From an uncultured Gemmiger sp. (GTDB lineage Bacteria; Bacillota; Clostridia; Oscillospirales; Ruminococcaceae), in assembly GCA_947629015.1 (NCBI GenBank), contig CANRCB010000020.1:1-36924 (forward strand): DNA of 36,924 bases. The letters are read 5' to 3'. The translations under genes and the position numbers were made by a program. Of this stretch, positions 4,558-31,270 are shown piece by piece (position 1 is the first letter of the stretch; every line of letters starts with the position of its first letter). The notes under the pieces are model-generated. The model was not told the DNA's origin. It saw only the letters and a list, made by a program, of their open reading frames with translations, and did no database searches.

Positions 4558-6057
4558 TTACGCGTCCATGCCGGGCAGGCAGGCGGCGGGGGGCTGCCCG
4601 GGCGCGGTGCGGGCGTAGTGCTCGGTCAGGATCTTTTTGAGGATGGCGCTGTCCTTGGGCAGGCGGGCGGCGAGCTTGTCCCAGCCGGTGAAATTGAGCT
4701 TTTCCGGCAGTGTGACAAGGCCCGAGACGGCGTCGGCAAAGGCGTCCCAGTTGGCGCCGTAAAAATCCGGCAGGGCGAGCTTTTCCTTGAGGAGGGCGTG
4801 CAGCTCCTGCGCGGTTTTGACGCCGCCGACGTCCAGCGTGGGGGCGGCGTGCTCGGCCAGCCAGCGCAGCGCCAGCCAGGTGTGCACGGCCGCGCCCTGC
4901 GCGAGCACCGCGTCGTCAAACCGCACCTGGGGGTGGTGCTGGGCGTAGCGGTAGCCGTTTTCCGAGTTGCCGGCCGCCAAAAACATCGTGACGGTGGGCA
5001 CCTTGTGGCTGACAAAGGCGAAATCCTCGCTGCCGCCGCCCGCCTTGCCGCCGGTCAGGGCGTTGAGGTCCAGCGCGGCGGGGCCGACCAACTCCCGCAT
5101 ATAGCGCAGCGCGGCGGCGCCAAGAGCGGGGTCGACGTACATACAGGGGCAGTAGTCGTAAAACTCCACCTCGGCGGTGCAGCGCAGCGCCGCCGCCACG
5201 CCCTGGCAGATCTCCCGCATGCGGGCCTTGATGCGCTCACCCACGGCGTTGTCGGGGTCGGTGGTGCGGATGGTGCCCCACATCTCGGCGGTGTCGGGGA
5301 TGACGTTGGAGACCTCACCGCCGGAAAACCGCCCGGTGGTAAAGATGCCGAACTCATTGCCCTCCAGCTCGCGGGCGCTGATCTCCTGCAAGGCCAGGTG
5401 GATGTGCGCGGCGGCGGTGATGGGATCCACGGCCAGATGCGGCGAAGCCCCGTGCCCGCCCTTGCCGTGCACGGTGATGTGGTACTGTTCGCAGCTGGCG
5501 GTGGAGACGCCGCCGGTGGCCACCTGCAGCATACCGTTGGGCATCGGCACGCCGGCGATGACGTGGAGCATCGCCGCGGCATCCACCGTTGGGTTTTCGA
5601 GCAGGCCGTTTGCCAGCATATCCGGCGAGCCCTGGAAGATCTCCTCGGCGGGCTGGAATTCCAGCTTGACGGTGCCCGCAAGCTCCGCCTCATGCGCCTT
5701 GAGCAGCTTGGCCGCGCCCAGCAGCATGGCGGTGTGCATATCGTGCCCGCAGCCGTGCATCTTGCCGGGGGTCAGGCTGGCGAAATCCACCGGCGCCTCC
5801 TCGGTGAGGGGCAGCGCGTCCATATCGGCGCGCAGCAGGAGGGTCTTGCCCGGTTTTTTGCCGCCCGCCAGCGCGATGAGGCCCGCCTTGCCGCAGTCCC
5901 TGGGCGCATAGCCCATCTCCTCCAGCTTTTTGCGCACGTAGGGCTTGGTGTACGCAAGGTCGAACCCCGTCTCGGGATGCCTGTGGAGGTCATGCCGGAT
6001 GGCCTCCAGTTCCCCCTGCAGGGCGGCGGCCTCGGCGAGAAGTTGTTTTGCATCCAT
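4558..6057 (-). CDS. M20-family amidohydrolase fused to a C-terminal barstar domain
   Basis: A 499-residue protein. Residues 1-402 are a complete M20D metallo-amidohydrolase (hippurate hydrolase/N-acyl-amino-acid deacylase type). The metal ligands are all present: HGCGHD (Cys103, His105), QPAEE (Glu138/139), MLHV (His165) and a late His375; the dimerisation-lid segment GKGGHGASPH (198-207) is intact. Residues 407-482 are a barstar fold. The segment ELHALLKEKLALPDFYG...NWDAFADAVSG...LP aligns without gaps to barstar His17-Pro48. It keeps both barnase-contacting aspartates (Asp35 and Asp39, here Asp438 and Asp442), while Tyr29, Trp38 and Trp44 are replaced by Phe, Ala and Leu. The frame is unbroken. 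It follows dusB by about 30 bases with an AAAGGAG site. The substrate and the barstar partner are unknown, and no barnase-like gene lies in the window. Confidence 0.9.
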   Translation of the reverse strand: MDAKQLLAEAAALQGELEAIRHDLHRHPETGFDLAYTKPYVRKKLEEMGYAPRDCGKAGLIALAGGKKPGKTLLLRADMDALPLTEEAPVDFASLTPGKMHGCGHDMHTAMLLGAAKLLKAHEAELAGTVKLEFQPAEEIFQGSPDMLANGLLENPTVDAAAMLHVIAGVPMPNGMLQVATGGVSTASCEQYHITVHGKGGHGASPHLAVDPITAAAHIHLALQEISARELEGNEFGIFTTGRFSGGEVSNVIPDTAEMWGTIRTTDPDNAVGERIKARMREICQGVAAALRCTAEVEFYDYCPCMYVDPALGAAALRYMRELVGPAALDLNALTGGKAGGGSEDFAFVSHKVPTVTMFLAAGNSENGYRYAQHHPQVRFDDAVLAQGAAVHTWLALRWLAEHAAPTLDVGGVKTAQELHALLKEKLALPDFYGANWDAFADAVSGLVTLPEKLNFTGWDKLAARLPKDSAILKKILTEHYARTAPGQPPAACLPGMDA

Positions 6058-6087
6058 AAAAAGCAGGCTCCTTTCCGGCTTTAAAGT

Positions 6088-10764: not shown

Positions 10765-11601
10765 TTACAGCACGGCGGGCATCGGCACGGGGGCGTTCTC
10801 GCTGCGCGGCGAGCCTTCCACCCACTGGATGGCCTTTTTGGGGCACTTGGTCACGCAGGTGCCGCAGCCGTTGCACTTGGTGTAGTCGATAACGGCCACG
10901 TTGCCCTTGAGGAAGATGGCCTCCCGCGGGCAGTTCTTGACGCACAGCCCGCAGGCGATGCAGCCCACCTTGCACGCCTTGTTTACGGCGGCGCCGCGGT
11001 CCAGGTTGGAGCACTTGACCACCGGCTGCGGGGCGATGGGCTTCATGTCGATGACGTGCCGCGGGCACACCGCGGTGCAGGCGGTGCAGCCGGTGCACTT
11101 TTCACGATCCACCACGGCCACGCCGTCCACCACATGGATGGCGTCAAACTTGCAGGCTTTGGTGCAGTCGCCAAGGCCAAGGCAGCCATACGCGCAGGCG
11201 CTGGGCCCGCCGGCGATGGCTGCGGCCGCGGCGCAGCTCTGCACGCCGGAATAATCAAACAGCTTGCCGCAGTTCTCCCCGCCGCTGCACAGCACCGTCG
11301 CGCGCATGCTGGGGCGGTCGGTCTGTTCGTTGCCCATGATCTTGTTGATGGCGTCGGCGCATTTGTCGCCGCCGGGCGCGCACTTGAAGGTGGGCGCGCC
11401 CTGCTCCACGATGGCCTTGGCATAGTCGGCGCAGCCGGCGTAGCCGCAGCCGCCGCAGTTGGCGCCGGCAAGGCATTCGGTCACCTGGGCGATGCGCGGA
11501 TCCTCATACACGGCCATGAACTTGGAGGCCAGCACCAGGATGGCGCCGCCCGCCAGGCCCAAAACCGACAGCATCAAAACTGCCAATACGATAGGATTCA
11601 T
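10765..11601 (-). CDS. rnfB: Rnf complex subunit B, polyferredoxin
   Basis: A 278-residue protein with one N-terminal membrane helix (about 4-27). It then has the RnfB-specific cluster motif ECLAGANCGGCGYAGC (about 43-58) and, further on, four ferredoxin-type [4Fe-4S] motifs: CLGLGDCTKACKF, CTGCTACTAVCP, CIACGLCVKNCP and CNGCGTCVTKCP. It is thought to receive electrons from reduced ferredoxin and hand them to the membrane flavins. It has more cluster motifs than the proteobacterial form, as is usual in Clostridia. It is the last gene of the operon, 12 bases after rnfA with a GGGGGTA site. Confidence 0.96.
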   Translation of the reverse strand: MNPIVLAVLMLSVLGLAGGAILVLASKFMAVYEDPRIAQVTECLAGANCGGCGYAGCADYAKAIVEQGAPTFKCAPGGDKCADAINKIMGNEQTDRPSMRATVLCSGGENCGKLFDYSGVQSCAAAAAIAGGPSACAYGCLGLGDCTKACKFDAIHVVDGVAVVDREKCTGCTACTAVCPRHVIDMKPIAPQPVVKCSNLDRGAAVNKACKVGCIACGLCVKNCPREAIFLKGNVAVIDYTKCNGCGTCVTKCPKKAIQWVEGSPRSENAPVPMPAVL

Positions 11602-11613
11602 ATCTGTACCCCC

Positions 11614-12252
11614 TTATCCCAGCGCGCCGACGATGTTCTCGACAAGCCCGCCAAAGCCCATAAAGCTCAGGCTCACGATGGCCGCCGCCACCAGCGTCAG
11701 GGGCAGGCCCTTGAAACTCTCGGGCGGGTCGGCGGCTTCCACGCGGGAGCGCACGCCGCAGAACAGCAGCATCGCCACCATGAAGCCCACGCCGGCACCC
11801 ACCGAGCAGACGAGCGCCTCGGCATAGGCAAGGCCGAACCCGCTCTCGGCGATGACGGGGGTGTAGTCCTGCGTGGCGAGGATGGTCACGCCCAGCACGC
11901 AGCAGTTGGTGGTGATGAGCGGCAGATACACGCCCAGGCTGCTGTACAGCGCCGGAACGTATTTTTTGAGCGTGATCTCCACCAGCTGCACCAGCACCGC
12001 GATGACGAGGATGAACACGATGGTCTGCATATAGCCCATATCGTTGGCGTCCAGCAAAAAGATCTGGATGGGGAAGGTCACGGCCGTGGCCATCAGCATG
12101 ACAAAGATGACCGCCACGCCCATGCCGATGCTGGAATCCATCTTTTTGGACACGCCCAAAAACGGGCAGATGCCCAAAAACTGCACAAGGACGTAGTTGT
12201 TGACCAAAATCATGTTAAAAAAGATGATGGCAAAGGTAGCAAAGTGGCTCAC
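11614..12252 (-). CDS. rnfA: Rnf complex subunit A, integral membrane
   Basis: A 212-residue protein with six predicted membrane helices. It has the family start FFNMILVNNYVLVQFLGICPFLGVS and the inner motif LPLITTNCCVLGV with conserved cysteines. RnfA and RnfE are pseudo-symmetric and hold an iron-sulfur centre between them in the membrane. The start overlaps the rnfE stop by four bases (ATGA), so the two are translationally coupled. Confidence 0.96.
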   Translation of the reverse strand: MSHFATFAIIFFNMILVNNYVLVQFLGICPFLGVSKKMDSSIGMGVAVIFVMLMATAVTFPIQIFLLDANDMGYMQTIVFILVIAVLVQLVEITLKKYVPALYSSLGVYLPLITTNCCVLGVTILATQDYTPVIAESGFGLAYAEALVCSVGAGVGFMVAMLLFCGVRSRVEAADPPESFKGLPLTLVAAAIVSLSFMGFGGLVENIVGALG

Positions 12253-12944
12253 TTCGCGGCACCCCCTTCCACAGCTTCGGCCTTCGCGGCGTCAAGCTCC
12301 TCCAGCATCACGTCGCCACAGGTCTTGCGCTCGATGGGCTTGTTCAGCTTGCGCTCCAGCCAGATGCACCCGGCCATCAGGCAGCCGAACACGAAAAACC
12401 CGCCGGGGGCGGAGTTCATGATGGTCATGCGGTCGATGCTTTCGGGGATGATGGTCACGCCCAGCAGGCTGCCGCCGCCGATCAGCTCACGGATGCCGCC
12501 CATCAGGCTCATGGTCAAAATGTAGCCGCAGCCCATGCCCAGCCCGTCCAGCGCCGAATCGACGACGGTGTTTTTGCAGGCGAACATCTCGGCCCGGCCG
12601 AGGATGATGCAGTTGACGACGATGAGCGCGATGAACACGCCCAGCGTTTTGTACAGGTCGGCCAGATACGCCTGCATGACCATCTGCACCACCGTCACAA
12701 AGCTGGCGATGATGACGATGTAGCACGGCAGGTGCACCTTGGCGGGTATGACCTTGCGCAGCGCCGAGATAAAGATGTTGGAGCCGACCAGCACAAAGGT
12801 CATCGCCAGGCCCATGCCCACGGCGCCGGAAAGCGTGGTGGTCACGGCCAGGGCCGAGCAGCAGCCCAGCACCAGGCGCAGCACGGGGTTCTCCCGGATG
12901 ATGCCGGCGGTAAAGATCTTCCATTTGCTCTGTTTTTCCGCCAT
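12249..12944 (-). CDS. rnfE: Rnf complex subunit E, integral membrane
   Basis: A 231-residue partner and paralogue of RnfA. It shows the family signatures IIRENPVLRLVLGCCSALAV and VVNCIILGRAEMFA and six membrane helices, plus a charged C-terminal tail rich in Ala, Lys and Glu. It begins one base after the rnfG stop (TAACATG), so it is read as part of the same coupled message. Confidence 0.96.
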   Translation of the reverse strand: MAEKQSKWKIFTAGIIRENPVLRLVLGCCSALAVTTTLSGAVGMGLAMTFVLVGSNIFISALRKVIPAKVHLPCYIVIIASFVTVVQMVMQAYLADLYKTLGVFIALIVVNCIILGRAEMFACKNTVVDSALDGLGMGCGYILTMSLMGGIRELIGGGSLLGVTIIPESIDRMTIMNSAPGGFFVFGCLMAGCIWLERKLNKPIERKTCGDVMLEELDAAKAEAVEGGAAK

Positions 12945-12945
12945 G

Positions 12946-13509
12946 TTACGCCGCCCCCTTCAGTTCAGTGTTGTAGCAGTCCACCGCGGCGTCCAGCGCC
13001 GTGAAGACCGCGGTCGAGGAATAGGTCGCCCCGGCGTAGGTATCCACCGGCGTGCCGGCCGCGATGTCGCCGCTGTAGCCGATGAACCCGGCCTCAAAGC
13101 TGTCGTCCCCCACATGGGAGCCGATGCCCGGCGTCTGGGTCGAGGCGTCGATGGAGAGCGCGGCGATGGCGCCGCCCTCGTCAAAGCTGACATAGATGGT
13201 CACCATCTCGCCCTGGTAGCCGGCGGCTGCGGTCTTGACGGCCCACACGCCCTCCGGCGTGCGGACGGCGCCCTCGATGCCCCCGGTGGAAAAGTCGGCG
13301 TATTCCTCCAGCGCGGCGGCGTCGGTGCCTTCCGGCAAGACTTCCAGATAGCTCGCAAGCGTCGCGGCCTTCTCGTTGGCCTCAATGACGGGCGCGGTCA
13401 CGCTGTTGAGCACCGCCAGCAGCGCGCTGCACACCAAACAGATGGCAATGAGCACCAAAACGGGGAAAACCAACTCGGAAAAGGCGCTTTTCTTCTCGGC
13501 AGTCTCCAT
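12946..13509 (-). CDS. rnfG: Rnf complex subunit G, covalent FMN carrier
   Basis: A 187-residue protein with one N-terminal membrane helix (about 13-33) and an extracytoplasmic FMN-binding domain. The flavinylation motif reads YAGATYSS (about 163-170), where the Thr of the (S/T)GAT-type site would carry FMN by a phosphoester bond. The first motif position is Ala rather than Ser or Thr. The ATG at 13509 shares one base with the rnfD stop (TAATG). The much longer in-frame extension upstream lies inside rnfD in another frame and is not coding. Confidence 0.94.
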   Translation of the reverse strand: METAEKKSAFSELVFPVLVLIAICLVCSALLAVLNSVTAPVIEANEKAATLASYLEVLPEGTDAAALEEYADFSTGGIEGAVRTPEGVWAVKTAAAGYQGEMVTIYVSFDEGGAIAALSIDASTQTPGIGSHVGDDSFEAGFIGYSGDIAAGTPVDTYAGATYSSTAVFTALDAAVDCYNTELKGAA

Positions 13510-14510
13510 TATTTGGCACCTCCCTGTGCGGCCGCGGGCTCTTTGGCCGCGGCGGCTTTTTTGCCCTTTTTGGCTTTTTGGGGCTTTTTGTAGCCCAGCG
13601 GGGTCTGGTGGACGTACTGGTTGAGCAGGCAGGTGATGATGTTGCCCAGCAGGATGGCAAAGCTCATGCCCTCGTTCATGCTGCCGAAATGGCGGATGAG
13701 CACCGCCGCCAGCCCGATGAAGATGCCGTAGATGAGCTTGCCCTTCGCGGTCAGCGGGCTGGTCACGTAGTCCGTCGCCATGAACACGGCGCCGAACAAA
13801 AGCCCGCCGGCGCACATCTCGACCAGCGTCACATGCAGATCCCCGGTGATGAGCAGCGTGAACACGAACGCCGACCCAATGATGGAGCAGGGGATCCACG
13901 CGTCGATCACGCCCACATACAAAAGGATGGCAAGCCCGGCCAGGCAGGCCAGCGCGCAGGTCTCGCCCAGCATACCGCCGTGCACGCCGAGGAACACGTC
14001 CAAAATGCTCACGGCGCTCCTGTCGACGCTGGCGGCCAGCGGGGTGGCGCCGGCCAGCGCGTCATGGGCGGTGCGGGGGTAGACGTACGCCGTCATGCGC
14101 GGGGCAAAGCCGAGGAACAGTACGATGCGGCCCACCAGCGCGGGGTTGGCAAAGTTGAAGCCGATGCCGCCCCACAGCTGCTTGGTGATGATGATGGCCA
14201 CGAACGCGCCGATCACGGCGATCCACAGCGGCATACCCACCGGCATATTCATCGCAAGGATGACGCCGGTCACGCAGGCGGAAAGGTCCCGCACCGGGAT
14301 GGGCTTCTTGAGCAAAAGGCACCACAGGTACTCAAACGCCACGCAGGCAAACACCGTCACGGCGATGAGCAGCAGCGCCCGCCAGCCAAAGATCATGGCG
14401 GCGGCCACCGTGCAGGGGAGAAGAGAGACCAGCACCCAGCCCATCAGGCCGGCGGTGGTGGTATTGTCCCGAATATGGGGCGATGCGGTCACAAGCAAAC
14501 GTTCGTCCAT
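13509..14510 (-). CDS. rnfD: Rnf complex subunit D, membrane FMN protein
   Basis: A 333-residue integral membrane protein with about eight to ten helices, starting with the family pattern ASPHIRDNTTT. The flavinylation site is LAGATPLA (about 152-159), and conserved QLWGGIGFNFANPALVGR and YGIFIGL...IRHFGSMNEGMSFAILLGN segments follow. The C-terminus is a Lys/Ala-rich tail. It probably forms part of the ion path of the complex. It lies three bases after the rnfC stop, with an AAAGGGGG site inside the rnfC 3' end. Confidence 0.96.
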   Translation of the reverse strand: MDERLLVTASPHIRDNTTTAGLMGWVLVSLLPCTVAAAMIFGWRALLLIAVTVFACVAFEYLWCLLLKKPIPVRDLSACVTGVILAMNMPVGMPLWIAVIGAFVAIIITKQLWGGIGFNFANPALVGRIVLFLGFAPRMTAYVYPRTAHDALAGATPLAASVDRSAVSILDVFLGVHGGMLGETCALACLAGLAILLYVGVIDAWIPCSIIGSAFVFTLLITGDLHVTLVEMCAGGLLFGAVFMATDYVTSPLTAKGKLIYGIFIGLAAVLIRHFGSMNEGMSFAILLGNIITCLLNQYVHQTPLGYKKPQKAKKGKKAAAAKEPAAAQGGAK

Positions 14511-14513
14511 CGC

Positions 14514-15848
14514 TTATTTGCCCCCTTTCCGTACTTCGGCCAGGTACCACGCCTTGGCCAGCGCCATGTTCTGCGAAACCAGCCGTTTGGCCGGGCAGAC
14601 ATAGGTGCAGCTGCCGCAGGCCACGCACAGATCCACGCAGCGGGCCTTCAGGCCGTCAAAATCCTTGCGGTTGAACGCCTCCACGATGGTCACGGGCTCC
14701 AGCCCCATCGGGCAGCCCTTGATGCAGCGCCCGCAGCGGATGCAGGGGTTGGGGTCGGGCAGGGCGGCCTTCTCCTTGCTGAACAGCAAAAGGCCGTTGT
14801 TCTGCTTGAGGACGGGGAAGTTGGCGCTTGGCGCCGCGCCGCCCATCATCGGCCCGCCAAAGATGACCTTGCCGAGGTGCACGCCCTCTTTGATGCCGCC
14901 GCACGCCTCGATGACGTCGGCGTACATCGTGCCGATGGGTACCTCGATGTTCTGCGGTTTGGCGATGGCGTCGCCCTCCACCGTCAGGCGCTTTGCGACG
15001 AGCGGCATACCGGTGCGTAAGTACTTGCCCAGGGTCGAAACGCTCGTCACGTTCATCACGATGCAGCCGGCGTCGGCGGGCAGGCCGGGCTTGCCGGCAT
15101 CATTGAACTGCGGCACCTCGCGCCCGGTGCAGCTCTCGATGAGCGTTTTCTCGGCGCCCTGCGGGTAGCGCATCGGCAGCGGCTTGACGGAAACGCCCTT
15201 CATATCGCGGGTCAGCGAGCACATCAGGTCGATGCACTCCGGCTTGTTGCGCTCGATGCCGATGATGCAGGTGGGTATCTCGCAGTACTTCATCACCGCC
15301 TCGATGCCGGCGATGATGGTGTCGCTGCATTCCAGCATCTCGCGCGCGTCGGTGGTCAGGTAGGGCTCGCACTCGGCGCCGTTGATGAGCAGCGTGTCGA
15401 CGTTGGCCGCGAGCTTGACGTGCGTCGGGAAGCCGGCGCCGCCCACGCCCACCAGGCCGCAGCCCTGGATGGCCGCCAGCAGGCTGGCCTTGTCGGTCAC
15501 CGTCGGCGGCACACAGGCGGGATCCGGCGTTTGCAGGCCGTCGGACTCGATGCGCACGGCCTTGGCCATCACGCCGTGCACCATGCGCACGTCCTCGATG
15601 GCCTTGACCGTGCCCGAGACGCTCGCATGGATGTTGGCGCTGACAAAGCCGCCCGCCTTGCCGATGAGCGTGCCGACCTTGACGCTGTCCCCCTTTTGCA
15701 CGACCGGCTCCGCCGGGGCGCCGATGTGCATCTGCAAGGGGATCAGCACCTCTTTGGGCACGGGCATCTGCACCGTCTGCATGCCCGCGGTGCCTTTCTC
15801 ATGCGGAACGGCGGCCCCCGCAGCGGAGCGCTTCAGGGTTTTGAACAT
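14514..15848 (-). CDS. rnfC: Rnf complex subunit C, NADH/FMN and iron-sulfur subunit
   Basis: A 444-residue peripheral subunit that passes electrons to NAD+. It has an N-terminal biotinyl/lipoyl-like domain (VVQKGDSVKVGTLIG...ANIHASVSGTV), the flavin/NAD fold with GVGGAGFPTHVK and NGAECEPYLTTD, and two C-terminal [4Fe-4S] motifs, CIRCGRCIKGCP and CVACGSCTYVCP. I chose ATG 15848, which begins MFKTLKR and has GGGGGA ten bases upstream; an ATG at 15866 is possible but has a poorer site. It is the first gene of rnfCDGEAB, the order found in Clostridia and acetogens. Whether the complex moves Na+ or H+ cannot be told here. Confidence 0.96.
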   Translation of the reverse strand: MFKTLKRSAAGAAVPHEKGTAGMQTVQMPVPKEVLIPLQMHIGAPAEPVVQKGDSVKVGTLIGKAGGFVSANIHASVSGTVKAIEDVRMVHGVMAKAVRIESDGLQTPDPACVPPTVTDKASLLAAIQGCGLVGVGGAGFPTHVKLAANVDTLLINGAECEPYLTTDAREMLECSDTIIAGIEAVMKYCEIPTCIIGIERNKPECIDLMCSLTRDMKGVSVKPLPMRYPQGAEKTLIESCTGREVPQFNDAGKPGLPADAGCIVMNVTSVSTLGKYLRTGMPLVAKRLTVEGDAIAKPQNIEVPIGTMYADVIEACGGIKEGVHLGKVIFGGPMMGGAAPSANFPVLKQNNGLLLFSKEKAALPDPNPCIRCGRCIKGCPMGLEPVTIVEAFNRKDFDGLKARCVDLCVACGSCTYVCPAKRLVSQNMALAKAWYLAEVRKGGK

Positions 15849-15875
15849 GAATCGTGATTCCCCCATTTCGTCTGC

Positions 15876-15947
15876 CTTTGGGGCAAAAATCCCCAAAAAG
15901 CCTAATACAAGCATTTTTATTTTAAATGTTTTTGTGCGAGGTGTCAA
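15876..15947 (-). promoter_or_regulatory. promoter and leader hairpin of the rnf operon
   Basis: The minus strand carries a perfect TTGACA (15947-15942), a 17-base spacer and TAAAAT (15924-15919). The leader of about 65 bases contains a small hairpin (TTTGGGG paired with CCCCAAA around ATTTTTG, in 15876-15900). The hairpin has no following T-run, so it is more likely a translation or stability element than an attenuator. A strong promoter fits a core energy complex. Confidence 0.75.
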
Positions 15948-18191: not shown

Positions 18192-19403
18192 TCAAGCCTC
18201 CAAATAATTTACAATTTGTACAATTTCGCCATTTTGTACATAAACGCGCGGCACGCGGCGGGCCACGCTGCACACCACCTCGTAGTTGATGGTGCCGGCC
18301 TTTTCGGCCACGGTGTCGGCGGTGTCGGCGCCGCAGGCGGCGTTGCCGGGCCCGAACACCGTCACCTCGTCGCCCATAGCAACGCCGTCGATGCCGGTCA
18401 CGTCCAAAATAGCCTGGTCCATGCACACGCGGCCCAGCACCGGCGCGGCGCGGCCGCGCACCGCCATCACGCCGCCCTGCAAATTGCCGGAGAGCCGCCG
18501 CGGGTAGCCGTCGGCATAGCCCACCGTCACGGTGGCCACCCGGCGGGGGGCGCCGCTGCCGTTCACATAGCAGCGGCCGTAGCTCACGCTTTCGCCGGGC
18601 AGCAGATCCTTGACCTGCTCCACCACGGCCTTCAGCGTCAGGGCCGGGCGCAGGGCGGGGCAGGGCACGTCGCCGCTGGGGGCCAGCCCGTACAGCACGA
18701 TGCCCGCGCGCACCATGCCCATGCCCCGCAAAGCGTCGGGGCGGCACAGCAGCGCGGCGCTGTTGGCGCAGTGCACCGTGCCGGGGTCATGCCCGGCGGC
18801 GCGCAGCGCCTCCACCGTTTGGGTAAAAAGGGTCAGCTGGCGCGCGGTGTAGCGCACGTCGTCTGCGGCGGCGCTGTCCGCCGCGGCAAAATGCTGGAAA
18901 ACGCCGGTGACCGCCAGCCCCGGCAGCGCGTAGCAGGCGCAAAGCCCCGCAAGGGCGGCCTCCGGCGTGCCGCGCACGCCGAAGCCGATGCGCCCCATGC
19001 CGGTGTCCAGCTTGAGATGCCCCTGCACCGTCACGCCGGCGGCCGCCGCCGCGGCCGAAAGCGCCGCGGCGTATTCGGCGCTGTAAATGGCGGCGGTCAG
19101 GCCGTTGTGCGCCAGCACGGCGGCACAGGCCGGGTCAACGCGGCCCAGGATCAGCACCGGCCGCGTGATGCCGGCGCGCCGCAGGCGCAGCGCCTCGGCC
19201 AGGCAGCTCACCGCAAAGGCCGCCGCGCCCTCCGCCTCCAGCAGGCGCGCCACGGCCGCGTCGCCGTGGCCGTAGGCGTCCGACTTCACGACGGCGCACA
19301 CCGGCACCCCGGCCGCCTGCTTTTTGCTGTGCGCAAAGTTGTGCCGCAAAGCGTCCAGATCCACCTCGGCCCAGCAATGCCGTTCAAAAACCGGTCCCGC
19401 CAT
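18192..19403 (-). CDS. alr: alanine racemase
   Basis: A 403-residue fold-type III PLP enzyme that makes D-alanine for peptidoglycan. The PLP lysine is Lys40 in AVVKSDAYGHG (37-47). KLDTGMGRIGF (131-141) holds the carbamylatable Lys131 and Arg138. The second catalytic base is Tyr275 in ESVSYGR, and VCMDQ (326-330) gives the active-site Met/Asp pair. The ATG at 19403 has GGGGAGG seven bases upstream. The longer open frame beyond it only reads through the rplM region. Alr dominates in this family, but a serine-preferring relative cannot be ruled out. Confidence 0.95.
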   Translation of the reverse strand: MAGPVFERHCWAEVDLDALRHNFAHSKKQAAGVPVCAVVKSDAYGHGDAAVARLLEAEGAAAFAVSCLAEALRLRRAGITRPVLILGRVDPACAAVLAHNGLTAAIYSAEYAAALSAAAAAAGVTVQGHLKLDTGMGRIGFGVRGTPEAALAGLCACYALPGLAVTGVFQHFAAADSAAADDVRYTARQLTLFTQTVEALRAAGHDPGTVHCANSAALLCRPDALRGMGMVRAGIVLYGLAPSGDVPCPALRPALTLKAVVEQVKDLLPGESVSYGRCYVNGSGAPRRVATVTVGYADGYPRRLSGNLQGGVMAVRGRAAPVLGRVCMDQAILDVTGIDGVAMGDEVTVFGPGNAACGADTADTVAEKAGTINYEVVCSVARRVPRVYVQNGEIVQIVNYLEA

Positions 19404-19433
19404 CCTCACGCCTCCCCAATCGGTCTCCAAGGT

Positions 19434-19462
19434 ATTATAGCATACCCCGCGCGCATTTGCCA
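19434..19462 (-). promoter_or_regulatory. promoter of alr-lepA
   Basis: The minus strand has TATAAT (19439-19434) preceded by TGC, giving a full extended -10. A weak TGGCAA lies 17 bases further up (19462-19457). It is 31 bases before the alr start codon. Confidence 0.65.
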
Positions 19463-19568
19463 CTGCGCAAAAAGCAGAGAAAACAAAAAATGGAAGGTGA
19501 GAAAACAAGAGGATATAAGAGATAACAAAAGAAAACGAAAGCAAGGCGGGATTTTTTTGCAAAACGGC

Positions 19569-19597
19569 TTGACGCCGCGGCCCCCCTTTGCTATAAT
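19569..19597 (+). promoter_or_regulatory. promoter of rplM-rpsI
   Basis: TTGACG (19569-19574), 17 bases and TATAAT (19592-19597) form a nearly perfect sigma-A promoter, as expected for ribosomal protein genes. Confidence 0.88.
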
Positions 19598-19603
19598 CAC
19601 ACT

Positions 19604-19680
19604 TGCGCGAAAACGCGCCGGGCCGCGCCCGGCGCTTGCGATACCGCCCCACGGGCGGGTGCGTCAAACCAACAGGAGGA
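19604..19680 (+). ncRNA. structured leader of rplM (L13-leader-like)
   Basis: From the expected transcript start to the AGGAGG site (19674-19679) three hairpins follow each other: GCGCG/CGCGC, CGCCGGGC/GCCCGGCG, and CCGCCC/GGGCGG. Firmicutes commonly carry an L13 leader here that lets the free protein repress its own message. The placement and stem order fit, but I could not compare it with the family's covariance model. Confidence 0.45.
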
Positions 19681-19688
19681 ATACGATT

Positions 19689-20120
19689 ATGAGCACAACC
19701 CTCGCCAAGCCTACCGAAATGGCGGACCGCAAATGGTACGTTATCGACGCCGCGGGCAAACCCCTGGGCCGTGTGGCCGCCAAAGCCGCCGTCATCCTGC
19801 GCGGCAAGGACAAGGTCACCTTCACCCCCAACGTCGACTGCGGCGACCATGTCGTCATCGTCAACTGTGACGCCGCCGTGCTGACCGGCCGCAAGCTGGA
19901 CAAGAAATTCCACTACACCCATTCCGGGTATATCGGCGGGCTCAAGGCCACCCAGTACCGCAAGCTGATGGCGGAAAACAGCGACAAAGCCATGACGCTG
20001 GCCGTCAAGGGCATGGTGCCGGACAACACCATCGGCGCCAAGGCGCTCACCCGGCTGCACTGCTATAAGGGCGCCGAGCATGCCCACACCGCCCAAAAAC
20101 CCGAAGCCGTCGCGCTTTGA
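19689..20120 (+). CDS. rplM: 50S ribosomal protein L13
   Basis: A 143-residue protein with the family pattern KWYVIDAAGKPLGRVAAKAA, then LRGKDKVTFTPNVDCGDHVV, the HYTHSGYIGGLK segment, and AVKGMVPDN as the conserved C-terminal mark. The ATG at 19689 has AGGAGG nine bases upstream. It forms the universal L13-S9 pair with rpsI, 19 bases apart. Confidence 0.98.
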   Translation: MSTTLAKPTEMADRKWYVIDAAGKPLGRVAAKAAVILRGKDKVTFTPNVDCGDHVVIVNCDAAVLTGRKLDKKFHYTHSGYIGGLKATQYRKLMAENSDKAMTLAVKGMVPDNTIGAKALTRLHCYKGAEHAHTAQKPEAVAL

Positions 20121-27341: not shown

Positions 27342-28379
27342 ATGAAAGCACTATCCAACGCCGAACTGGCGGTCTTTTGCGGCCAGCTGGATCTTGTCCT
27401 GCGGGCAGGCATCCCGGCCGCCGAGGGCCTTGCCGCCCTTGCGGGGGACACCCCGGAGGGCGAGGGCCGCGCCCTGCTTGAGCAGATGGCGGCCGGCATG
27501 GAGGCGGGCGCCCCCTTTGCCGAGGTTCTTGCGCAGAGCGGCGCCTTCCCCGCGTACCTGTGCAGCATGGTGCGCCTGGGCGAGGCGTCCGGCCGCCTGG
27601 ACGACGTTTTGCAGGCGCTGGCCGCGCACTACCAGCGCGAGGAGGCGCTGGCCGCCAACATCAAGAACGCCGTGACCTACCCCCTCATCATGCTGGGCAT
27701 GATGCTGGTGGTGCTGGTGGTGCTGGTGGTGCAGGTGCTGCCCGTGTTTGACGGGGTGTTCCGCCAGCTGGGCAGCGGGCTGACGGGTTTCCCCGCCGCG
27801 GTGCTGCACATCGGCCAGGCGCTGGGCCGCTACAGCCTGGTGTTTTTGCTGCTGGCGGCGGTGCTGGCGGCGGTGTGCGGGTATTTTGTGCTCACCGCGC
27901 GCGGCCGGCAGAAGCTGCGCGGGTTCGGGCAGCGGTTTTTCGCCACCCGCAAGCTGGCCGAAAAGATCGCCACCGCGCGCTTTGCCAGCGGTATGCACCT
28001 GGCCTTGAGCAGCGGCCTTGATTTGGACGAGGGCCTTGCCACGGTGGCCGGGCTGGTCGAACATCCGGGCGTGGCCGCCAAAATCGAAACGATGCGCCGG
28101 GAGATGGCCGCCGGCAGGAGCTTTGCCGAGGCCAGCGCCGCCGCGGGCATGTTCCCGGGGCTGTACGCGCGCATGGTCAACATCGGGGTGCGCGCCGGCT
28201 CGGTGGACGAGGTGCTCACCAACATCGCCGCCCGCTATGACGACGAGATCGAGCGCGATACCGCTGCCGCCGTCGCCCGCATCGAGCCGGCGCTCGTCGC
28301 GGTGCTGTCGGTGGTGGTGGGCATGATCCTGCTTTCGGTCATGCTGCCGCTGATGGGCATCATGTCCGGCATCGGGTAA
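27342..28379 (+). CDS. pilC: type IV pilus/type II secretion platform protein, PilC/GspF-like
   Basis: A 345-residue inner-membrane protein with two repeated GspF domains. Each has a cytosolic helix bundle (about 5-105 and 210-310; FCGQLDLVLRAGIPAAEGL and FASGMHLALSSGLDLDEGL are the matching starts). Membrane helices lie near 113-134, 163-184 and 318-342. MVRLGEASGRLDDVL and MVNIGVRAGSVDEVL are the conserved motif pair of the family. It would couple the ATPase motor to pilus or pseudopilus assembly. It is somewhat shorter than usual PilC (about 400), lacking part of the N-terminal extension. A GGAAAGGAG site precedes it, 25 bases after the lipoprotein gene. Confidence 0.92.
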   Translation: MKALSNAELAVFCGQLDLVLRAGIPAAEGLAALAGDTPEGEGRALLEQMAAGMEAGAPFAEVLAQSGAFPAYLCSMVRLGEASGRLDDVLQALAAHYQREEALAANIKNAVTYPLIMLGMMLVVLVVLVVQVLPVFDGVFRQLGSGLTGFPAAVLHIGQALGRYSLVFLLLAAVLAAVCGYFVLTARGRQKLRGFGQRFFATRKLAEKIATARFASGMHLALSSGLDLDEGLATVAGLVEHPGVAAKIETMRREMAAGRSFAEASAAAGMFPGLYARMVNIGVRAGSVDEVLTNIAARYDDEIERDTAAAVARIEPALVAVLSVVVGMILLSVMLPLMGIMSGIG

Positions 28380-28391
28380 GGGGGCCGTGGG

Positions 28392-28721
28392 ATGAACCGC
28401 TTTCAAAAACACGGCCCCGCCCTTGCGCCGCTGCGGCGGCTCGCGCCGGCGCTGCTGTTCCTCGCGGTGCTGGCGGCCTTTGTGCCGGGGCTGGGCGTCG
28501 TCTCCGATATGACCGGCCGCGAGCAGGCCAAAAGCCTTGAAAACACCGTCCGCCAAAGCGCCGTGCACTGCTACGCGCTGGAGGGTTTTTACCCGGACAG
28601 CCTTGCCTATCTCGAGCAGCACTACGGCCTGCGGTACGACAAAAGCCGCTACATCGTCTCGTATGAGACGGTCGGCTCCAACCTGATGCCGGATATCGCC
28701 GTCATCCGGCTGCAAGGGTAA
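28392..28721 (+). CDS. small pseudopilin-like membrane protein A
   Basis: A 109-residue protein with a basic N-terminus, one hydrophobic helix (about 18-38) and a small outer domain containing LENTVRQSAVHCYALEGFYPDSLAYLEQHYG. That stretch recalls the alpha-to-beta turn of GspG-type pseudopilins (Tyr-Pro-x-Ser-Leu). The canonical prepilin cleavage motif GFTLIE is absent. AAGGGGG lies seven bases before the ATG and the gap to pilC is 12 bases. Its role as a minor pilin is inferred from context and fold hints. Confidence 0.6.
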   Translation: MNRFQKHGPALAPLRRLAPALLFLAVLAAFVPGLGVVSDMTGREQAKSLENTVRQSAVHCYALEGFYPDSLAYLEQHYGLRYDKSRYIVSYETVGSNLMPDIAVIRLQG

Positions 28722-28733
28722 GGGGGTGGCCGC

Positions 28734-29219
28734 ATGGATACGCGCCGCCGCCCGCCCGTGAGCGACCTGTTTTTCACCCTGGGGCTTTTCTGTGTGTTCA
28801 CCGTGTGCTCGCTGCTGCTCATCGCCATCGGCCTGCGCGCCTACCGCGCCACCGTGACCCATATGCAGGACACCTACTCCACCCGCACGGCGCTGGCCTA
28901 TGTGGCGGAAAAGGTGCGCCAGCACGATACCGCCGGTGCCGTCGCCCTGACCGAGCTGGGCGGCGCCCCCGCGCTGCTGCTCACCGATACGGTGGGGGAT
29001 ACCGCCTACTGCACCTACCTCTACGCCGACGCCGACACCCTGTACGAGCTCACGCAGCGCGCCGACGCCGAGCCCGACCCCGCCTTGGGCGAGGCCGTCC
29101 TCGCCGTGCGGGGCTTTACCGTCACCGACGCGGGCGGCGGCTTCTGGGCCCTGGCCGCGCAGGACAGCGGCGGCGAGACCGTGCGCTGCCTCGTACACCC
29201 GCGCAGCGCAGCGGCCTGA
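28734..29219 (+). CDS. membrane-anchored DUF4860-like protein
   Basis: A 161-residue protein with one N-terminal helix (about 10-35), then STRTALAYVAEKVRQHD and an outer beta-rich domain. The pattern matches, from memory, the DUF4860 proteins seen in pilus-type operons of Ruminococcaceae. The helix followed by a predicted alpha stretch is also the layout of GspI/GspJ-like minor pseudopilins. It overlaps nothing and lies 12 bases behind the preceding gene with an AGGGGGTGG site. Confidence 0.55.
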   Translation: MDTRRRPPVSDLFFTLGLFCVFTVCSLLLIAIGLRAYRATVTHMQDTYSTRTALAYVAEKVRQHDTAGAVALTELGGAPALLLTDTVGDTAYCTYLYADADTLYELTQRADAEPDPALGEAVLAVRGFTVTDAGGGFWALAAQDSGGETVRCLVHPRSAAA

Positions 29220-29257
29220 CCCGCATATCCTGACCCGGAAAGGAGGGAACAACGCCC

Positions 29258-29695
29258 ATGCCCACCCGCAAGGATGCGCGCCCCAGCCTGTTTTTGCTGG
29301 AGCTCATCATCGCCATTTTGTTTTTTGCTTTGGGCAGCGCGGTGTGCGCGCAGGCATTCGCCCGCGCCCATACCGCCGGCCGGCAGGCGCGGGAGCTGGC
29401 GTTTGCCTCCGCCGCGGCCGCTTCCGCCGCCGACGCGGTGCACTACGGCGGCACCGCGCTGGAACAGTTCAAGGCGTTTTTCCCGCAGGCGTATGCGCAG
29501 GACGGGGCGCTGGCCGTCAGCTATGACGCGGCGCTCGCCCCCTGCGCGCCGGAGCAGGGCGTGTACACGCTGTGCGTGCGCACCCGGCAGGCGGACGGCG
29601 CCGTCTTTGCCGATGTCAGCGTTTCGGGGCAGGGCGGCGAGGCCCTCTACGCGCTGAACGTCCATTGGCCCGCGGGGCAGGGGGGCACGCCATGA
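29258..29695 (+). CDS. prepilin-like protein with a divergent class III signal
   Basis: A 145-residue protein. The N-terminus KDARPSLFLLELIIAILFFA fits a type IV prepilin if cleavage follows Ser10: Glu15 is then the conserved +5 glutamate, and a helix to about residue 33 follows. Ser replaces the usual Gly before the cut. The outer domain of about 110 residues has CAPEQGVYTLCVRTR with two cysteines that could form a disulfide. AAAGGAGGG lies before the ATG. Its stop overlaps the next start (ATGA, 29692-29695). Confidence 0.6.
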   Translation: MPTRKDARPSLFLLELIIAILFFALGSAVCAQAFARAHTAGRQARELAFASAAAASAADAVHYGGTALEQFKAFFPQAYAQDGALAVSYDAALAPCAPEQGVYTLCVRTRQADGAVFADVSVSGQGGEALYALNVHWPAGQGGTP

Positions 29696-30198
29696 ACGAG
29701 AAAGCCCGGCGCGGGCAGCCCCCGCTCATCGCCACCGGCATCACCTCGCTGGTGCTGGTGTTCGTGCTGCTGTGCCTGCTCACCTTCGCGGTGCTGTCCC
29801 TCGTCAGCGCGCAGGCGGATCTGCGCCTGAGCCAAAAAAGCGCCGCGCGCACCACCGCGTACTACGCGGCCGAGAACGCCGCCAACGACCTCCTGCTCGC
29901 CCTCATCCCCGTCCTTGACGCAAACGCCGGCGCGCCGGATGCCGAAAGCTATTATGCCGCCGTGCAGGCGGGCGCCGCCGATATGGAAAGCCTTGCGTTC
30001 GACGGGCAGGGCCGCGTCTCCTTCCAGGTTCCGCTGGGGGAGCAGCAGATCCTCGCGGTGGAGCTGGAGCTCCTCCACCGCCCCGCGGCGGATGGCGCGC
30101 ACTACCGCATCCTGCGCTGGCAGGCCGTCACCGGCTATGACTGGCAGCAGGAGCAGCCGTTGGAACTTATCCGGCCCGGCACGCTGCCGGAGCCCTGA
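29692..30198 (+). CDS. PilX/GspK-like minor pseudopilin
   Basis: A 168-residue protein. The N-terminus has a helix of about 28 residues (ITSLVLVFVLLCLLTFAVLSLV) followed by QADLRLSQKSAARTTAYYAAENAAND, the alpha-helical spine with the YYAAENAA box typical of PilX/GspK proteins. The rest is a small globular domain ending near residue 168. It is translationally coupled to the preceding prepilin-like gene and is followed by pilT 19 bases later. The function is inferred from the spine and the operon. Confidence 0.65.
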   Translation: MNEKARRGQPPLIATGITSLVLVFVLLCLLTFAVLSLVSAQADLRLSQKSAARTTAYYAAENAANDLLLALIPVLDANAGAPDAESYYAAVQAGAADMESLAFDGQGRVSFQVPLGEQQILAVELELLHRPAADGAHYRILRWQAVTGYDWQQEQPLELIRPGTLPEP

Positions 30199-30217
30199 AC
30201 CCCGGAGGAGGGAACGT

Positions 30218-31270
30218 ATGGAACTGATGGGATTTCTGCGCCAGGCCGCCGCGCAGGGCGCTTCGGACCTGTTCATCGTGGCCGGGCGCCCGCTCACCTG
30301 CAAATGCGGCGGCACCCTGGCCGCTCTGGGGGAGGAGCGCGCCATGCCGGAGGCGACCCGCGCCCTGGTGGAGAACATCTACCGCCTGGCCGGGCGCAGC
30401 ATGGCGCGGCTGGAGGACAGCGGCGACGACGATTTTTCCTTTGCCGTGCCGGGGCTGGCGCGCTACCGCGTGAGCACCTACCGGCAGCGCGGCTCGCTGG
30501 CGGCGGTGGTGCGCGTGATCCGCTTTGACCTGCCCGACCCCGCCGCCCTCGGCATCCCGGAAAGCATCGTCCGGCTGGGGGAGCTGGGCAAGGGGCTGGT
30601 GCTCGTCACCGGCCCGGCGGGCAGCGGCAAATCCACCACGCTGGCCTGCATCATCGACGCCATCAACCAAACGCAGAAAAAGCACATCATCACGCTGGAA
30701 GACCCCATCGAATATCTGCACCGCCACCGCGAGAGCATCATCAGCCAGCGCGAGGTCGGCGCCGATACGGCCGGCTACGCGGTGGCCCTGCGCGCCGCGC
30801 TGCGCCAAAGCCCCGACGTCATCCTGCTGGGGGAACTGCGCGATTTCGAGACCATCTCCATCGCCATGACGGCGGCCGAGACGGGGCATCTGGTGTTTTC
30901 CACCCTGCACACGCCCTCGGCGGGGGATACCATCAACCGCATCATCGATGTGTTCCCCCCTGCCCAGCAGCCCCAGGTGCGGGTGCAGCTGGCGGCCGTT
31001 TTGCAGGCGGTGGTCAGCCAGCAGCTGGTGCCCGCCGCCGCGGGCGGCATGGCCCCCGCCTTTGAGCTGCTGGTCGCCACCCCCGCCGTGCGCACCATGA
31101 TCCGGGAGAGCAAGCTCCACCAGCTGGACGGGCTCATCGCCTCGTCGGCGTCGGCGGGTATGTTCACGATGGACGGCAGCCTTGCGGCGCTGTGCCGCGC
31201 GGGCACCGTCACGCGGGAGCAGGCCCTGGCCCACGCGGCCAACCCCGAAGCGCTTGCCCGCCGGCTGTGA
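30218..31270 (+). CDS. pilT: type IV pilus retraction-type ATPase, PilT-like
   Basis: A 350-residue hexameric secretion ATPase. Walker A is GPAGSGKST (132-140), the Asp box is EDPIEYLH, Walker B is VILLGELRDFETI, and the His box is ETGHLVFSTLHT. The AVRTMIRE(SK) motif near residue 290 and the short N-terminus place it with PilT rather than PilB/GspE, which have an extra N-terminal domain and a zinc CxxC. The ATG at 30218 has CGGAGGAGGG upstream. No PilB-type motor occurs in the window, so this enzyme may power the whole system, or the PilB gene may lie elsewhere. Confidence 0.93.
   Translation: MELMGFLRQAAAQGASDLFIVAGRPLTCKCGGTLAALGEERAMPEATRALVENIYRLAGRSMARLEDSGDDDFSFAVPGLARYRVSTYRQRGSLAAVVRVIRFDLPDPAALGIPESIVRLGELGKGLVLVTGPAGSGKSTTLACIIDAINQTQKKHIITLEDPIEYLHRHRESIISQREVGADTAGYAVALRAALRQSPDVILLGELRDFETISIAMTAAETGHLVFSTLHTPSAGDTINRIIDVFPPAQQPQVRVQLAAVLQAVVSQQLVPAAAGGMAPAFELLVATPAVRTMIRESKLHQLDGLIASSASAGMFTMDGSLAALCRAGTVTREQALAHAANPEALARRL

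Follow-up and report, generated by a model that had tools for sequence, protein, structure and literature searches.

Barnase and barstar form the textbook pair of an RNase and its inhibitor and serve as a standard model of protein binding. How a barstar-family domain comes to sit at the C terminus of a metabolic enzyme, and what it may do there, is the question raised by one gene in the 36,924-nucleotide stretch of uncultured Gemmiger sp. DNA analyzed here (hereafter the window; the genome to which it belongs is designated G000). A sequence-only reading of the window had described an M20 hydrolase with a C-terminal barstar domain in one unbroken frame, and it had not recognized the fusion as a described system. 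The protein architecture is borne out by Pfam, by TIGR01891, and by the single open reading frame on the minus strand (Table 1).

One open frame encodes an M20D amidohydrolase and a barstar domain

The frame opens with an ATG at position 6057 and continues without a stop down to 4558. Pfam placed Peptidase_M20 (PF01546) at residues 74-394 (E = 1.2e-33) and M20_dimer (PF07687) at residues 192-285 (E = 9.8e-15), and the PF01337 search that had been proposed as a check on the barstar assignment returned a match at E = 2.5e-13, with 50.3 bits against a gathering cut-off of 23.4. The NCBIfam amidohydrolase profile TIGR01891 was covered from position 3 to position 365 of 366, with a score of 305.7 bits versus 153.75. 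Five residues that we take to be those of the M20D metal site (C103, H105, E139, H165, and H374) are conserved in 90-100% of 49 aligned sequences, and the M20 part is mostly confident in an AlphaFold model of the full fusion. Moreover, sequence type, fold, and motifs are the same as in the M20D proteins YxeP of B. subtilis (1ysj), 4ewt of S. aureus, the N-acyl-glutamine aminoacylase 6slf, and the IAA-amino acid hydrolase 1xmb; all four match the fusion within residues 5-405, and the barstar domain is extra in the window protein. The M20 part appears to be an intact enzyme and, in the explanation preferred below, would act as a carrier only.

A separate internal start for the barstar was considered and rejected, since the linker contains no Met and the junction DNA, inspected by eye, has no AGGAG-like site. 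The neighbors of the fusion gene in the window are dusB and a gene for an HTH protein, with no toxin gene adjoining, and the fusion had no match in the PADLOC defence library. Elsewhere in the window we noted a type II secretion or pilus-like cluster (27342-31270; T2SSF, DUF4860, and T2SSE ATPase genes), an Rnf-type electron transport cluster on the minus strand (10765-15947; RnfC-like, FMN-binding, Rnf-Nqr membrane, and ferredoxin-like subunits), and, also on the minus strand, an alanine racemase frame (18192-20096) with ~245 residues ahead of the racemase domain and a putative frame start.

Table 1. Positions of the fusion gene and its parts in the window, with loci and genomes of relatives referred to in the text
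Feature	Position, locus, or genome	Strand	Basis
M20D amidohydrolase-barstar fusion gene, 499 aa	4558..6057	minus	One ORF; Pfam/NCBIfam
M20D amidohydrolase part, residues 1-403	4849..6057	minus	Pfam, NCBIfam, lengths of relatives
Barstar domain, residues 407-480 (PF01337 positions 5-80 of 96)	4618..4839	minus	Pfam
DAFAD, residues 438-442	4732..4746	minus	Alignment to barstar
Proline-rich C-terminal tail, residues 481-499, at the place of beta-3 in other barstars	4561..4617	minus	
Likely ribosome-binding site AAAGGAG, 10 nt 5' of the ATG	6068..6074	minus	
Barstar in frame with TrpB-like, M32, radical-SAM, PelX-like, or 644-aa protein	L213, L214, L132, L134, L135, L186, L133		
RNase-bearing M20 genomes without a nearby barstar	G1085 (= G029), G1094, G1095, G1090, G1103		

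The fusion is shared by a second species and its barstar part is being kept

Relatives of the M20 part were sought by a pattern-based scan of one genome each for 84,980 species, and the best 80 of 160 confirmed relatives were used. Among these 80, a protein from a second species (L016, genome G029, a bin titled uncultured Gemmiger sp.) shows the same fusion across residues 1-498 with 88% identity, in the same frame and with the same junction and length (499 aa). The remaining 79 are unfused proteins of 399-415 aa that end where the window barstar starts. Relatives with more than 50% identity within the genus comprise the fused protein of G029 and unfused ones in G030, G028, and G013. As judged by M20 identity and the genus grouping, the genomes with the fusion are closely related to each other, and the fusion and the loss of the linked barstar described below are each counted as one event.

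A frameshift between the two domains, which the sequence-only reading had named as a possible refutation, is ruled out together with assembly artefact by the identical frame in the separate species assembly; the fusion is real. The RNA link that the same reading had seen in dusB did not extend to other M20 loci. In flanks of up to 6 kb, some of them shortened by their contigs, around the best 80 of 160 M20 relatives, dusB occurred only beside the fusion gene of the second species.

Between G000 and G029, residues 404-480 show 25 base differences that are distributed over the codon positions as 5/5/15 (p = 0.006), and the NG86 omega of the barstar part is 0.20 (bootstrap 0.06-0.46, with 0 of 300 values at or above 1). 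Since this omega resembles that of the M20 part (0.24) and the differences are concentrated at third positions, purifying selection acts on the barstar part and the domain is being kept. Between the two species, conservation is lower in the tail (66.7% identity, 18 codons).

The equivalents of Asp35 and Asp39 are retained and the third strand is not visible

A phmmer search found barstar of the PDB (E = 6e-7) in an alignment that is ungapped across 49 residues (barstar 10-58) and hence longer than the 17-48 originally claimed. As that reading had also held, the equivalents of Asp35 and Asp39 are retained in the form of D438 and D442, which are present in both fusion species, and A441 occupies the Trp38 position. 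In 41 sampled same-locus RNase-barstar pairs, which were found with a search pattern permitting D, E, N, A, or K at position 39, Asp was present at that position in 40, and position 38 was Y, H, F, W, A, S, E, R, or N. Given this variation at position 38 among RNase-linked barstars, Ala at that site is no sign of loss.

Strand beta-3 of barstar is visible neither in the sequence of the fused domain nor in the structure model. In the full-length AlphaFold model, the barstar part follows the order beta1-alpha1-alpha2-beta2-alpha3-alpha4 without beta3 (block pLDDT 46-78), and thus the search for a three-stranded sheet, which had been suggested as a further check, yielded two strands at low confidence. 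This low confidence arises because two sequences alone inform the model. When modeled alone, the domain has a mean pLDDT of 51.8 and no strand of at least 3 residues, and the model is too uncertain to use; with it, Foldseek returned barstars as 9 of 10 matches, but every E was at least 1. In the explanation preferred below, the fused domain is taken to fold and act as a barstar.

The resident barnase-family RNase has no linked barstar

In addition to the fusion, which is its one PF01337 match, the G000 genome has one PF00545 match, a barnase-family RNase gene on contig 4, i.e., on another contig than the fusion gene, and no barstar gene adjoins it. A position beside such an RNase gene is usual for barstars, although membership of the domain family does not depend on it. 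By sequence, this RNase is matched to barnase chains with E = 6e-24. The counterparts of Lys27, Glu73, Arg83, Arg87, and His102 are all present in it, and it has Tyr at position 59. Its omega is 0.26 for G000 versus G029 (73 codons) and 0.42 against G030; the G029 gene is interrupted by the contig end, and its last 75 residues are visible. The N terminus of the G000 RNase is hydrophobic and signal-like, which suggests that the enzyme should be exported. Nothing was found in support of the earlier guesses that the barstar domain regulates the hydrolase or tethers it to an RNA-degrading partner, given an RNase that is probably exported by virtue of this N terminus.

In G030, the RNase gene is followed by a barstar gene and a DegV-like gene (a label that reflects our reading of the sequence). 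The RNase and barstar genes overlap there by ATGA, as they do in 3 of the 5 genus genomes that have both families. In G000 and G029, the next gene after the RNase gene is already this DegV-like gene, and no barstar gene lies in the gap, which measures 71 nt in G000. Upstream of the RNase gene, blastn blocks revealed a rearranged gene order between G000 and G030, and therefore the synteny of the locus is confined to its downstream side. The linked barstar gene is absent from the RNase locus in both fusion species.

Across the 35 genomes of the genus, PF01337 and PF00545 occur in the same 5, and neither occurs in the other 30 (Fisher p = 3e-6). Among 396 genomes of the family, both were detected in 77, barstar without the RNase in 18, the RNase without barstar in 10, and neither of them in 291 (p = 9e-53); this p value serves as a guide only, as the genomes are related. 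In the genus, an RNase gene that lacks a linked barstar is seen in two members, G000 and G029, and these are also the two with the fused barstar. For 76 of the 95 RNase matches in the family, a barstar starts within 1 kb, and the remaining 19, that of the window species included, have no nearby detected barstar. Of the best 80 of 160 M20 relatives, 50 genomes were tested; 19 of them bear the RNase, and 5 of these have no nearby detected barstar (Table 1). Loss of linkage is therefore not unique to the fusion species, since other genomes also have RNases without a nearby barstar.

Other arrangements of the two families were also seen. Barnase-family RNase genes with no barstar detected either adjoining or elsewhere in the genome were observed at L209, L212, L224, L225, and L227. 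Six similar barstar genes stand in tandem behind one RNase gene at L148 and L149 (G085 and G147), and frames with two to three barstar-like repeats lie near RNase-like genes at L183, L184, and L189 (G451 and G469).

The fused domain belongs to a different barstar branch

The closest relative of the fused domain is a barstar encoded by a megaplasmid of Niallia taxi (55.7% identity over 70 aa), and its identity to the linked barstar of G030 is 33% across 69 columns. The Niallia gene lies ~1 kb behind an LXG-EndoU toxin gene, with a 136-aa ORF intervening, which is an immunity-gene setting. In the larger of two trees (94/97 domains, 60-100 aa), the fused domain grouped with barstars from Niallia, Streptomyces, Hymenobacter, and Burkholderia plasmid records (support 91/79), and in the smaller one (40 chosen rows), it was placed among the lone-barstar group (support 100/99). 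The AU test disfavored its grouping with the linked barstar of G030 (p = 0.026). Most members of the branch are stand-alone barstars from other classes and phyla; the relatives inspected on the Streptomyces, Hymenobacter, and Burkholderia records are lone barstars, apart from one that is fused to a CPCC protein. In the 5 records covered, out of 7, an in-house RNase model found no RNase within 4 kb of the branch relatives. The same-branch barstar of a Streptomyces record (L206, 3509-4261) lies in a gene annotated as encoding a CPCC family cysteine-rich protein.

As the fused domain is placed on a different branch from the RNase-linked barstars, it would not have co-evolved with the resident RNase from the start. 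It is probably not a relocated copy of the linked barstar gene; its probable origin is the import of an immunity-type barstar. Regarding possible sources, an origin from a phage or virus was rejected after searches of the phages and viral_contigs sets gave no match to the fused domain at the limits used. A close donor within the order was rejected as well: 24 of 295 genomes matched (the window's own included), the best other match having 40% identity over query 1-74. Base composition gave no sign of import, with GC3 being 0.90 in the barstar part and 0.89 in the M20 part.

Barstar-enzyme fusions recur among relatives

Searches of open-licence papers turned up engineered barstar fusions and no natural fusion of barstar to a metabolic enzyme. 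The sequence-only reading had likewise not treated the fusion as a described system, but barstar-enzyme fusions are recurrent among relatives, which here means genomes of the same family, of the same order, or reached via M20 loci. In 10 of these genomes (L125-L131 and L215-L217), an N-terminal barstar and QueA share one open frame, with an RNase gene upstream. Barstar is likewise in frame with a TrpB-like protein (2 loci), a radical-SAM protein (2), an M32 carboxypeptidase (1), a PelX-like protein (1), which scores under its own family cut-off, and a 644-aa protein (1). In G013, a member of the window's genus, the barstar frame enters a glutaredoxin-like gene that has its own ribosome site.

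The RNase gene lies directly upstream in 17 of the 18 barstar-fusion loci, and in the exception, L130, it is on the same strand at a distance of 2.2 kb upstream. These frames were taken from stop to stop, their true starts not being fixed, and G1123, a repeat of G360, was counted once. Partner assignment by Pfam covered both TrpB-like frames, 2 QueA frames out of 10, and one radical-SAM frame out of 2; the remaining frames and the glutaredoxin label were assigned by eye. In 3 of the 10 QueA cases, the QueA part has no ATG, GTG, or TTG where it begins, and the fusion therefore looks obligate. For the other fusions, a separate start of the partner is also conceivable, and good ribosome sites are present for the M32 and glutaredoxin-like genes.

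The window fusion is similar to these in that barstar is in frame with a metabolic enzyme in an RNase-bearing genome. It differs in that its barstar is C-terminal and its RNase unlinked, whereas in the relatives the barstar is N-terminal and the RNase is upstream. In addition, those relatives' fusion barstars that were placed in the trees fall outside the branch of the M20 fusion.

Discussion

The window case concerns a known inhibitor family on a known enzyme family; the genomic arrangement is observed directly, and the inhibition is a prediction from it. The RNase and inhibitor families are those of Bacillus amyloliquefaciens barnase and barstar (PF00545 and PF01337), and the two aspartates are kept. 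Unlike the barstar gene of that organism, however, the inhibitor here is the C terminus of an enzyme, is unlinked to the RNase gene, belongs to another branch, and has no visible beta-3. In a comparative survey of polymorphic toxin systems (PMC3482391), Imm-Barstar is linked specifically with barnase-like toxins, and simple barnase-barstar gene pairs are noted. The fused domain is of the same family as the Imm-Barstar of that survey, and the gene closest to it in sequence has a toxin-immunity setting, but it has no toxin gene beside it and is fused to a metabolic enzyme.

Our preferred explanation, to which we assign a probability of roughly 45%, is that an immunity-type barstar was imported onto the M20D enzyme and is now a cytoplasmic inhibitor of the cell's own exported barnase-family RNase. 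The fusion would be a cytosolic M20D amidohydrolase with the inhibitor domain as a C-terminal passenger. The RNase would be made with an N-terminal export segment, and any copy folding ahead of its export would cleave the RNA of the cell. For most RNase-bearing relatives, an adjacent barstar gene, overlapping in three congeners, would provide the inhibitor. In G000 and G029, the adjacent gene would have gone and the M20-borne barstar would be left, co-produced with the metabolic enzyme. Under this explanation, the fused barstar would bind the resident RNase, and it most likely replaced a linked inhibitor that had been lost. Counting against such a take-over are the lack of a visible beta-3, the less conserved tail, the different barstar branch, the limits of the synteny to the downstream side, the single event that fusion and loss each represent, and the fact that RNases without a nearby barstar are not rare. 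A further inhibitor could also be unseen, because the bins are incomplete (87% for G000 and 86% for G029).

Among the functions guessed at by the sequence-only reading, the mostly stand-alone relatives, the toxin-side Niallia gene, and the RNase without an adjacent barstar favor that of an immunity module transferred to a housekeeping enzyme. It is, however, rather unlikely that the module is an orphan, carried on a constitutive enzyme against RNase toxins of competitors (polymorphic or type VII) with the resident RNase not being its target. The toxin-side position of the Niallia gene, the lone or CPCC-fused state of the other relatives, and the lack of an RNase match within 4 kb in the 5 records covered, out of 7, are what one might expect of such an orphan, but the fused domain is found only in two close species, and these are the two of the genus that have an RNase without a linked barstar. 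Improbable, too, is a barstar domain that regulates or localizes the M20 enzyme or is a structural extension of it, with no RNase inhibition. The lack of a visible beta-3, Ala in place of Trp38, and the uncertain domain model are consistent with that view, and yet the helix bearing the equivalents of Asp35 and Asp39 has been preserved, the domain is absent from 79 of the best 80 M20 relatives (of 160), and the presence of barstar follows that of the RNase across the genus.

The probability is slightly lower again for a recent, nearly neutral fusion without function. Its restriction to two species and its less conserved tail would agree with this, but the third-position excess, the low omega, and the absence of any bootstrap value at or above 1 all speak against it. 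We consider it very improbable that the linked barstar itself was transferred away from the RNase gene to become the fused domain. The linked gene is indeed missing in both fusion species; nevertheless, the domain is far closer to the Niallia barstar than to the linked one of G030, the smaller tree puts it with lone barstars, and the AU test disfavors the grouping that relocation requires.

Inhibition of the resident RNase by an imported barstar may also be part of a broader pattern, which we regard as tentative and a little less probable than that explanation itself. Bacteria of this type, whose order we take to be Oscillospirales, may recurrently weld the inhibitor of their exported barnase-type RNase to metabolic enzymes (seven different partners, one of them unassigned), which would guard against loss or under-expression of the inhibitor, and in the window lineage, an imported M20-borne barstar may have fully replaced the linked inhibitor in a swap.

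In this lineage, the RNase has been kept, the linked inhibitor is gone, and a barstar from another branch, located on an enzyme, is the sole one visible in the genome, so that the natural replacement of an inhibitor becomes open to direct testing. Taken together, the barstar-enzyme fusions of relatives suggest a general way to fix an inhibitor in the genome.
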